This document shows positions 19,853 through 33,056 of a DNA stretch of 33,461 bases, piece after piece. Positions within the stretch are counted from its first letter, which is position 1. Every line of letters starts with the position of its first letter. The notes beneath the pieces are model-generated. The model saw nothing but the letters and a program-made list of their open reading frames with translations, did not search any database and was not told where the DNA came from. Both the position numbers and the translations under genes were made by a program. Origin of the DNA: a virus; IMG/VR virus record IMGVR_UViG_3300029787_000039, positions 25,694 through 59,154 of that record; one strand, given 5' to 3'.

Positions 19853-20047
19853 ATGGAAAACGTATACACATTTTTGGGCTTCCTTGTGTTGGTCATTGTT
19901 GGCTGGTTTATGATACTATCCGGCATGGCCTACGGTTTAAGTTTCGCAAGCTATGGCTGGCCAGCCTATGGTGTAGCTGGTGGCCTTGCCGCTATTGGCG
20001 TAGTCTTAAACTGTTTAGCTATTAAGGTATTGTGCTTAAACTTGTGA
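19853..20047 (+). CDS. 64-aa two-pass membrane protein
   Basis: Nearly the whole protein is hydrophobic: a first segment FLGFLVLVIVGWFMILSGMAY and a second AYGVAGGLAAIGVVLNCLAI, joined by a short aromatic loop. It follows the 22-aa peptide in the same short P2 transcript. The stop codon TGA lies inside CRP-like palindrome copy 2, whose first bases encode the last Leu. Early membrane proteins of this kind may alter host membrane processes or exclude other phages; nothing specific is recognised. Confidence 0.65.
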   Translation: MENVYTFLGFLVLVIVGWFMILSGMAYGLSFASYGWPAYGVAGGLAAIGVVLNCLAIKVLCLNL

Positions 20048-20060
20048 AAATTTTCACAAG
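20041..20060. promoter_or_regulatory. CRP-like palindrome, copy 2
   Basis: Perfect CTTGTGAAAATTTTCACAAG. It contains the stop codon of the upstream gene and ends two bases before the -35 of promoter P3. Its centre is about 47 bp upstream of the predicted P3 start, near the position of class II CRP activator sites. Confidence 0.7.
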
Positions 20061-20062
20061 AT

Positions 20063-20091
20063 TTGACAACGTAAAAGGATTATATTAGTAT
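20063..20091 (+). promoter_or_regulatory. Promoter P3 for the structured RNA (TTGACA-N17-TAGTAT)
   Basis: TTGACA at 20063-20068 and TAGTAT at 20086-20091 with 17-bp spacing. The predicted start, about 20098, is the first base of the 20-bp outer stem of the structured RNA. Confidence 0.65.
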
Positions 20092-20097
20092 CTATTT

Positions 20098-20244
20098 AAC
20101 TGCTTACCTATGGGAAGTCATGGCGAGCGAATGTTACAGGCCAACGAAAGCACTAGTGGCTGGAGGTTTTACACACTGTAACAAGGTAGAGTGTAGCTAC
20201 CTAGCGTGAGGTTCGATTCCTTGCCTTCCCATACGTAAGTAGTT
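20098..20244 (+). ncRNA. Structured RNA with tRNA-like 3' half (candidate)
   Basis: An outer stem pairs AACTGCTTACCTATGGGAAG (20098-20117) with 20225-20244, with one mismatch and one G-U over 20 bp. Inside are GTTACAG/CTGTAAC (20133-20139 with 20176-20182), AGGTAG/CTACCT with a 7-nt loop (20184-20202), a 4-nt linker, and a T-arm-like hairpin TGAGG-TTCGATT-CCTTG (20207-20223). The last two arms mimic the anticodon and T arms of a tRNA, but the part replacing the D-arm is over 60 nt and U33 is absent, so it is not an ordinary tRNA. Promoter P3 predicts a start exactly at the stem. No long reading frame. It may be a regulatory or decoy RNA; the function is unknown. Confidence 0.6.
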
Positions 20245-20428
20245 AAGAGCTTGGTTCCACTAAGGCGTGGTCATCTATTACAATGCCGCACAAGTAATAG
20301 GGGAAGAGAATAAACTAAGGCGGCACATTGCCTTGCGTTTAGTGAATGCATACACTAAAAGGCAACCATAGCTCCCTAGTATGTTGTGGTATGATGTACT
20401 AGGGAGCGTCTAAATATATGAGGTACAC
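20245..20428 (+). promoter_or_regulatory. Hairpin-rich leader before the 20429 gene
   Basis: Further helices follow the structured RNA: CCAC/GTGG (20257-20270); CTATTAC/GTAATAG (20275-20300), whose loop TGCCGC can pair with GCGGCA at 20320-20325 as a pseudoknot; a long hairpin TTGCCT..TTTAGTG/CACTAAA.AGGCAA (20328-20365); and a perfect 11-bp hairpin GCTCCCTAGTA/TACTAGGGAGC (20371-20407). No U-run follows the last one. This may be part of one larger RNA or a 5' leader controlling the gene at 20429. Confidence 0.5.
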
Positions 20429-20764
20429 ATGGCAAAGAAACAACGCCACCACTGGCAAACAAATAATAGTGGACACTATCCCAACATGAGAAATTCATCT
20501 ACTGATGTTGAGATACTACACGACAGTAACCGTGGACGCATGGTGCATGACCACATGGTATCCGTTAGCAATCAACAACAAATTGATGAGTACAACAAAC
20601 AAGAAGAACTCAGACAATTTGCAAAAGATATCTGGGACAGTAAATCTTGTGAAAATTTTCACAAAAAAGAACCTGATATAGAGTGGACCCTAGATCCCGA
20701 TGAGTACATAACCCTTGATGGAGTAAAATACTATGAGATTATGGACAAAATGGAGGCGATGTAA
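20429..20764 (+). CDS. Early protein, 111 aa, unknown
   Basis: Hydrophilic, His/Asn/Asp-rich product: a basic start (MAKKQRHHWQTNNSGHYPN), a central helix (NQQQIDEYNKQEELRQFAKDI) and an acidic end (EWTLDPDEYITLDG). CRP-like palindrome copy 3 lies inside the gene and encodes SCENFHK, so the element is tolerated within a coding frame. No family recognised. It ends in a TAATG overlap with the next small gene. Confidence 0.65.
   Translation: MAKKQRHHWQTNNSGHYPNMRNSSTDVEILHDSNRGRMVHDHMVSVSNQQQIDEYNKQEELRQFAKDIWDSKSCENFHKKEPDIEWTLDPDEYITLDGVKYYEIMDKMEAM
20646..20664. promoter_or_regulatory. CRP-like palindrome, copy 3 (inside a gene)
   Basis: CTTGTGAAAATTTTCACAA, with the full 18-bp core TTGTGAAAATTTTCACAA at 20647-20664. 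It lies within the reading frame 20429-20764, about 100 bp before the next gene start. Confidence 0.65.
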
Positions 20765-31797: not shown

Positions 31798-32658
31798 ATG
31801 AAAAATATAGAAACATTAGTAAAAGATATCTATGATCTTTTTAATCTTAGCCCTATAGAAAGAGATGAGAAAGAAGTAGATGAGCTTATAGATAAGTTTG
31901 GAGATATGATTAAAATTCATATTAAAGAATTTATGTATAGTAAACCAAGAGATAGTGGTAATCTTAGGTTATCTGGTATTGGTAAGCCAGATAGACAACT
32001 ATGGTATGATGTCAATACTGAAACTACAGAAGAGCAACTACCCCCAAGTACACGCATTAAATTCTTATATGGATACATCCTTGAAGAATTACTTTTACTA
32101 TGTGCTGAAGTAGCTGGTCATACTGTAGAGGCACAGCAAGCAGAGGTATCAGTAGAAGGTGTATTAGGACATCAAGATGCAATGATTGATGGTGTTCTTG
32201 TGGATTGTAAGTCTGCTTCTGGTAGGAGTTTTGAAAAGTTTAATTCTAATAATCTAGTTAACGATGATCCCTTTGGCTATATCGCTCAGATATCTGCTTA
32301 TGCTGAAGCTAATAATGTAGATAAAGCGGCCTTCCTTGTTATAGATAAATCTACTGGTAAGATATGCCTAGCTCCTGTGCATTCAATGGAGATGATTAAT
32401 GCGGGGAGTAGAGTTAAAGCATTAAAAGAAATAGTCACTAGCCCTACGATGCCTAATAGATGTTATGATCCAGTGCCTGATGGTAAATCTGGTAATTATA
32501 AATTAGCTATAGGCTGTTTGTATTGCCGACATAAAAAAGAATGTTGGTCTGATATAAATGGCGGTAAGGGATTAAGAGTGTTTCAATATGCAAATGGAAA
32601 GAGATATCTTACCAGCGTAGTGAAGACCCCTGATGTACCAGAGGTAGTTGATTGGTGA
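31798..32658 (+). CDS. RecB/Cas4-like exonuclease (PD-(D/E)XK)
   Basis: The 286-aa product has LYGYILEELLLLCAEVAGH, then the nuclease core GHQDAMIDGVLVDCKSAS with Asp127, Asp136 and Lys138, an FGYIAQISAYAEA helix (Q...Y) and a C-terminal Cys cluster CLYCRHKKECW. Cys in this place suggest an Fe-S or zinc site as in Cas4/AddB. Likely a 5'-3' exonuclease for host-DNA breakdown, recombination or concatemer processing, comparable in place to T7 gp6. The start has no close Shine-Dalgarno unless the upstream hairpin folds. It overlaps the GIY-YIG gene. Confidence 0.8.
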   Translation: MKNIETLVKDIYDLFNLSPIERDEKEVDELIDKFGDMIKIHIKEFMYSKPRDSGNLRLSGIGKPDRQLWYDVNTETTEEQLPPSTRIKFLYGYILEELLLLCAEVAGHTVEAQQAEVSVEGVLGHQDAMIDGVLVDCKSASGRSFEKFNSNNLVNDDPFGYIAQISAYAEANNVDKAAFLVIDKSTGKICLAPVHSMEMINAGSRVKALKEIVTSPTMPNRCYDPVPDGKSGNYKLAIGCLYCRHKKECWSDINGGKGLRVFQYANGKRYLTSVVKTPDVPEVVDW

Positions 32659-33056
32659 GATCCCATTGGAAGTATAAGAAGAACCCAAACGTAGAACATA
32701 TGTTTGGTTTTGTTTATGTTATTACAAATAAAAAAACAAAAAAATCTTACATAGGATGTAAACAATATTGGCATTACTCAAAAACAAAAAGAACACGACA
32801 AACAAATTGGAAAGTATATATGGGTTCTTCTAAACACTTATTAGAAGATATAAAAAAATTAGGTAAGAGAGCTTTTAAGTTTGAAATAATATCAGAGTTT
32901 AAAAATAAGCGTAGCCTTAGATACTATGAATGTTATTATCAAATGAAATACAATGTATTATCAACAACTTTAGAAGGAACTGATGAACCTGCCTACTATA
33001 ATAATTATGTAGGGGGTAAATTTTTTAGACCAGTACAGGCGTATGAAGACAAGTAA
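32655..33056 (+). CDS. GIY-YIG endonuclease
   Basis: The N-terminal half shows the GIY-YIG motifs FGFVYVITNKKTKKSYIGCKQ followed by WKVYMGSSKHLLEDIKKLG and FKFEIISEFKNKRSLRYYEC. The last segment includes the Arg and Glu typical of the catalytic site. I choose GTG at 32655 (133 aa), overlapping the exonuclease stop by GTGA with GAGG upstream; TTG at 32652 is an alternative. Such short free-standing enzymes are usually phage homing endonucleases next to replication genes. Confidence 0.8.
   Translation: MRSHWKYKKNPNVEHMFGFVYVITNKKTKKSYIGCKQYWHYSKTKRTRQTNWKVYMGSSKHLLEDIKKLGKRAFKFEIISEFKNKRSLRYYECYYQMKYNVLSTTLEGTDEPAYYNNYVGGKFFRPVQAYEDK

Follow-up and report, generated by a model that had tools for sequence, protein, structure and literature searches.

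A conserved phage RNA family with a probable origin in tRNA-Ser and a predicted loop-loop kiss

The tmRNA has an acceptor and a T-arm but lacks a normal D-stem or anticodon, and YrlA, a bacterial Y RNA, is a structured noncoding RNA with a tRNA-like domain. In the accessible part of a study of phages T5 and T6, their tRNA-Tyr molecules counter retron-Eco7 and Septu, which cut the variable loop of a class II tRNA (PMC13096335). Allo-tRNAs are reported from bacteria and soil metagenomes in the accessible sections of a review, where phages have no occurrence; the same sections describe some irregular tRNA relatives that are not charged by E. coli enzymes and have no known function (PMC7609411). 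Here, we describe an RNA family from marine phages that resembles each of these systems in part.

The analyzed stretch (the window) comprises 33,461 nucleotides, positions 25,694-59,154 of IMG/VR record IMGVR_UViG_3300029787_000039. The virus record has 59,154 bases and encodes a terminase, a DNA primase/helicase, and a DNA polymerase belonging to the family known from T7-like phages. The closest isolate DNA polymerases are those of Pelagibacter phages (about 46% identity); the family RNA was not found in HTVC104P and HTVC115P, two Pelagibacter phages near by DNA polymerase. The window also carries a SegE-type GIY-YIG homing endonuclease at 32652-33056 (PF19835, E = 7e-31).

A first-pass annotation had proposed a structured RNA at 20098-20244 and suggested an Infernal/Rfam search. 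No Rfam 15 family matches the window RNA, and neither ARAGORN nor Rfam 15 called a tRNA or other RNA in the window. The RNA is not recognized as a tRNA by RF00005 (the Rfam tRNA model) or ARAGORN, no tRNA-like Rfam match appeared in 19980-20440 even at E values up to 10, and no tRNA was found in the remaining part of the record. In the window and at eleven loci that contain family members or kin, no family RNA reached an Rfam 15 gathering score, the sole gathering match being a separate tRNA in locus L002. Neither Rfam nor ARAGORN gave a tmRNA match in the window. YrlA was considered and rejected, as there was no match to the RF02553 covariance model and no TROVE (Ro60) gene in the window's own record. 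BLAST searches of five members (L374, L369, L390, L386, and L097) against 50,697 phage records returned short matches or none, with nothing above 80% of the query; the window region likewise had no isolate match that exceeded 80% of its length. The ORF upstream of the RNA, used as a protein query, gave no match, and no title or abstract opening found in the open-licence literature describes such an RNA.

The 20098-20244 segment is predicted to fold with a minimum free energy of -54.9 kcal/mol (z = -4.61), and none of 200 shuffled sequences was as stable. All parts given below lie on the + strand. The closing stem, annotated earlier as 20 bp, is real (20098-20117/20225-20244, 19 pairs and one C-C mismatch) but does not define the RNA. 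Its outer 14 bp, in which the leader (20098-20111) pairs with 20231-20244 (trailer strand, 20232-20244), occur only in the window, L003/L004, and L002, that is, in this phage and its close kin. The inner part is the acceptor helix, formed by GGGAAG (20112-20117; G1 at 20112, U-1 at 20111) and CTTCCC followed by a discriminator-like A (20225-20231; A at 20231), with no encoded CCA. Next comes TCATGGCGAGCGAA (20118-20131), a conserved motif that aligns to UGGCCGAGUGGUUGAA of tRNA-Ser and appears to be a shortened counterpart of the D-arm, with no evident D-stem; none conserved was seen by eye in the alignments. Helix C, the anticodon-arm counterpart, has its 5' strand at 20132-20139 and its 3' strand, placed by alignment and hand parsing, at 20176-20183. 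Its loop contains an extra domain of small helices (20140-20169), which has letters in 6 of the 18 sequences and is absent from the compact members described below, and then the segment TACAC (20170-20174), predicted to pair with 20191-20195. Hairpin E (AGGTAG-AGTGTAG-CTACCT, 20184-20202) carries the other half of this kiss, GTGTA (20191-20195), in its loop, as identified by a loop-partner permutation test. The linker AGC (20203-20205) leads into the T-arm (20206-20224; stem GTGAGG/CCTTGC, loop TTCGATT), which is as first described and has a loop of the TTCRANY type. An ATG-started reading frame covers part of the window RNA; a coding role was rejected, as a single-base difference in L003 shifts the frame and L097 has no ATG there (by eye). 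Downstream, 20245-20425 forms a second structured stretch, in which a 17-pair hairpin spans about 20371-20407 (z = -2.0, 5/200 shuffles); L002 has a tRNA-Trp at this position.

Relatives were collected by pattern scans of IMG/VR and with a four-sequence covariance model (R1), which together brought in 22 records besides that of the window. Of the scans, one yielded members in 3/3 contigs and others in 6/25, 6/17, 15/15, and 18/26 stretches; two more (at least 118 stretches and at least 119 bacterial stretches) were screened with a stricter expression only. R1 matched 9 of 50 related records at E <= 1, namely five already-known members and four weak or tRNA-like sequences. The family found here thus stands at 23 phage records with 18 distinct complete cores. 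Complete members have E values from about 1e-38 to 1e-7, and L370, whose 5' end is cut, has 4e-6. Twenty-two loci were parsed, L004 being left out as identical here to L003; the counts below omit L370 (partial) and L103 and L375 (duplicates), leaving 19 rows, 18 of them distinct. This RNA family is real and conserved, and it is absent from Rfam 15.

Members fall into a long class of 121-159 nt, to which the window RNA belongs, and a compact one of 92-95 nt. They have in common a 6-bp acceptor helix followed by a GGCGAGUGAAUG-type motif that varies in the compact class, helix C, hairpin E with a 3' strand ending in CCU, the linker A[A/G]C, and a T-arm whose stem has 6 bp in every member. Decoding is still conceivable in the compact class: ARAGORN calls four of its records tRNA-Arg(acg) or tRNA-Ala(cgc) (L369 3570-3660, L372 3859-3949, L374 5664-5754, and L375 4013-4103). 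Automatic annotation may therefore hide the family among phage tRNAs. In Citrobacter phage Moogle (L376; KM236239.1, 63120-65144), the tRNAs are annotated on the strand opposite to that given by ARAGORN, and what looks like a permuted piece of a tRNA or tmRNA sits in a gap of the array. The T-arm and acceptor end of L386 (12320-12490, - strand) match the tmRNA of Enterococcus phage 113 at 25/25 bases.

Compensatory changes, which the first-pass annotation had suggested looking for among relatives, were found in all helices and support them. In alignment A5, 21 of 31 pairs are changed on both sides, including five of six in the acceptor helix, seven of eight in helix C, and three in the T-arm; hairpin E is likewise placed by covariation as well as by parsing and by alignment to tRNA-Ser. 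These changes occupy 101 cells, compared with 29 in shuffled alignments (0/500), and 95.7% of cells pair versus 77.4% in shuffles. The covariation score is 0.497 versus 0.182 in shuffles, with 0/500 reaching it, and it falls to 0.05-0.15 when partners are slid by one to three columns. A5 was fitted to R1, which biases the pair counts in favour of the structure; concordant results come from the slid controls and the hand-parsed table. The acceptor/T stack is 6+6 bp in 18 of 19 rows, the exception being L386, which has two mismatched acceptor pairs. The earlier claim of a structured RNA is thus extended to a conserved, covarying family.

The loop of hairpin E bears on whether the RNA could decode. 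In the window, five bases of AGTGTAG, GTGTA, can pair with the TACAC that lies nine bases upstream of the hairpin. The longest Watson-Crick match of each distinct E loop was sought in the 30 bases upstream of its stem. All 11 distinct loops find their own partner, with 4-7 bp (mean 5.5) versus 3.3 bp with the segments of other members, and loop swaps equalled the observed Watson-Crick sum in 0/100,000 permutations. When G-U pairs were allowed, 0/3,000 permutations and 0/2,000 shuffles reached the observed kiss. The pairs co-vary (UACAC/GUGUA, UUACAC/GUGUAA, GUGACA/UGUCAC, CUGUAC/GUACAG, CCAAA/UUUGG, UCGCA/UGCGA, UAACG/CGUUA, UCGAC/GUCGA, AGCCAAA/UUUGGCU, UGUGAG/CUCACA, and AGCG/CGCU), and for most members the end of the partner lies 8-12 bases upstream of hairpin E, on the 3' side of the helix C loop. 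Against the kiss, the partner lies 15-20 nt from hairpin E in L368 and L379, the kiss of L373 has 4 bp, and an alternative pairing of similar length is available in the window, L372, and L374. The helix C loop differs in size from a 7-nt anticodon loop and can pair with the E loop; no free anticodon was found. On balance, the supposed anticodon arm appears to be tied to the neighbouring helix. The 6-bp arm with a 7-nt loop that was first taken for an anticodon arm does exist at 20184-20202, but its loop is predicted to pair internally and it corresponds to the variable arm of tRNA-Ser. We found no description of a kiss between anticodon-arm and variable-arm loops in the open-licence literature.

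The identity of these arms comes from comparison with bacteria. A second covariance model (R2, 19 sequences) found no family member under strict filters in the genomes of two bacterial classes (385 and 369). At E <= 1e-5, it matched loci in 42/385 and 34/369 genomes, none above 37.7 bits; complete members re-scored with R2 give 59-91 bits. Ten of those matches were typed, and all ten are tRNA-Ser. All R2 matches in three genomes amount to 28 tRNAs (12 Ser, 3 Tyr, 3 Gly, 2 Phe, 2 Thr, and six others, with 0 Leu), the best in each genome being a tRNA-Ser. In alignments with tRNA-Ser, the variable arm is matched by hairpin E, the anticodon arm by helix C, and the D-arm by the GGCGAGUGAAUG motif. 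The family and tRNA-Ser also have AGG..CCUAACG before the T-arm in common, where the tRNA-Ser of L398 has ...AGGUCUAAAGCCUAACGAGGGUUCGA. Because of these best bacterial matches and arm-by-arm alignments, we conclude from sequence comparison that the family probably descends from tRNA-Ser, having lost the anticodon and any evident D-stem.

We very probably have the architecture right: a 12-bp acceptor/T stack divided 6+6, a long variable arm, a shortened D region, a helix C loop kissing the variable-arm loop, and no usable anticodon. The end by which proteins that handle tRNAs take hold of them is retained. For the RNA as a whole, we tentatively prefer a tRNA-Ser-derived, non-decoding phage RNA that would act in trans as a mimic or decoy, a reading to which we give somewhat less than an even chance. 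It is conceivable, though short of probable, that host RNase P and 3' processing would release the RNA, that CCA (encoded in 0/19 rows) would then be added, and that the product would persist as a stable tRNA-Ser mimic in trans, occupying a protein that grips class II tRNAs. G1-C72 occurs in 19/19 rows, U at -1 in 17/19, and A at 73 in 16/19, a pattern that fits the features of an RNase P substrate. Placement resembles that of tRNA genes, at several different gene junctions and, in L002, 14 bases before the start of a tRNA-Trp. Against such processing, the leader and trailer of the window RNA pair together and could hinder RNase P. The first-pass annotation had left the choice between a tRNA mimic and a regulatory RNA; the mimic is favoured by the kinship to tRNA-Ser, and a base-pairing regulator is less likely because the most variable loops are explained by intramolecular pairing.

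An acceptor that is charged is an unlikely alternative. SerRS, or LeuRS given A73, would aminoacylate the RNA, and the charged form would serve a non-ribosomal reaction or tie up the synthetase. Conserved G1-C72, together with G-C at pair 2 in 14/19 rows, speaks for it. According to the accessible text on serine identity, the variable arm is needed and the anticodon is not, and most bacterial tRNA-Ser keep G1-C72 and G2-C71; charging is possible because SerRS does not need the anticodon (PMC9976931). Leucine identity, in the same text, requires A73 and D/T-loop contacts (PMC9976931), and A73 would favour LeuRS. G73, however, is present in 1/19 rows, pair 3 varies (GC 9, AU 8, GU 2), CCA is not encoded, the D region is shortened, and charging has no clear need for the kiss. 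The G3-U70 pair of L097 and L105 and the apparent lack of a D-stem had suggested a tmRNA-like or alanine acceptor, which was rejected because pair 3 varies.

The surroundings of the RNA bear on both the mimic and the remaining alternatives. In the window, a promoter-like TTGACA-N17-TAGTAT (20063-20091, + strand; hexamers at 20063-20068 and 20086-20091) would place a start at about 20098. The site has 10 of 12 consensus letters, and its region is conserved in L005, L006, and L007 (with TATTAT as second hexamer in the latter two). The promoter claimed earlier at the RNA start is thus plausible but unproven: hexamers and conservation are there, yet the site alone is not beyond chance, the scanner having found two such sites versus a mean of 1.8 in shuffles. 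The CRP-like site claimed beside it was borne out as a perfect 18-bp palindrome, TTGTGAAAATTTTCACAA (20042-20059, no strand assigned), just upstream. The window has five exact copies of it (18944, 20042, 20647, 21928, and 25169; 0.04 expected, allowing up to 3 mismatches), and the remaining 25.8 kb of the record none; it is probably an operator for a CRP-like regulator encoded by phage or host. Elsewhere, L105 has TTGCAT-N17-TATAAT upstream (by eye), and the L097 RNA, which has no obvious promoter to itself, begins 9 nt after a coding sequence and precedes a terminator-like hairpin.

Rather unlikely is a processing signal, in which the tRNA-like fold would direct RNase P and 3' cutting of phage polycistronic transcripts and the released RNA would be a by-product. 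Its location between genes at different junctions, the 12-bp stack, G+1, and the frequent U-1 would suit this role, which leaves unexplained why the kiss, the D motif, and the variable arm are conserved; the window copy, moreover, has the promoter-like site before it and a long hairpin of its own after it. A cis-acting 5'-UTR element of the next gene, whether a switch or a translational operator, is improbable. Seven copies (L372, L374, L375, L379, L388, L389, and L105) end 20-30 nt before a start codon, and in seven records the RNA lies between genes for ssDNA-binding-protein-like and exonuclease-like products, identified in the one case tested (L371) as a Gp2.5-like ssDNA-binding protein and a Cas4-domain exonuclease. 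In L388 and L389, it lies between a weak annealing-protein match and an endolysin-type hydrolase, and in the remaining records between other genes. These differing neighbours, with downstream genes that change between clades, argue against a cis element, as do the hairpin after the L097 copy and the 197 nt that separate the window RNA from the next ORF. A tRNA pseudogene in decay, or an attP site that copies the 3' half of a host tRNA, would account for the tRNA-like 3' half and the lack of a usable anticodon but is hardly credible, because strong covariation and the kiss are kept over 18 distinct cores, which indicates selection on structure.

For the trans-acting mimic of tRNA-Ser, the likeliest target would be a host antiviral tRNA nuclease or a nucleotidyltransferase, since both loops that tRNA nucleases cut are predicted to be tied up in the kiss. 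MenT3 prefers serine tRNAs, according to the accessible part of its description (PMC10435456). A decoy is favoured because retron-Eco7 and Septu cut the class II variable loop, phage tRNA-Tyr counters them, and both vulnerable loops appear to be hidden here. In its most specific form, which we consider speculative and unlikely, the RNA would be a nuclease-resistant tRNA-Ser decoy with kiss-locked anticodon and variable loops, which host enzymes cutting or modifying class II tRNAs could bind and could not inactivate; on that doubtful reading, it would represent a previously undescribed class of counter-defence RNA. If the family is what we propose, phages would be shown to turn a tRNA into an RNA that does not decode. 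A decoy role would indicate a tRNA-Ser-directed defence in marine bacteria and would make the RNA a ready reagent for finding the enzyme.

Compared with known systems, the family is closest in its parts to bacterial tRNA-Ser, with which it shares the T-arm, the long variable arm, the CCUAACG-type junction, the start of the D-arm, and the 12-bp acceptor/T stack; it differs in dividing that stack 6+6 rather than 7+5 bp, in its shortened D region, in the replaced anticodon loop with its predicted kiss, and in having mostly A73. tmRNA likewise has an acceptor and T-arm and lacks a normal anticodon, but G3-U70 is found in only 2 of 19 family rows. Allo-tRNAs and irregular relatives have the class II shape and an unusually divided 12-bp acceptor domain; as far as the accessible sections describe them, however, allo-tRNAs are 8/4 or 9/3 with anticodons, whereas the family is 6/6, and no kiss is described (PMC7609411). 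The tRNA-Tyr of T5 and T6 is, like the RNA described here, a phage-made class II molecule, suggested in the accessible part of that study to be a decoy or a supplement; it is encoded by full tRNA-Tyr genes, whereas the present family appears to be a remodelled, non-decoding RNA (PMC13096335).
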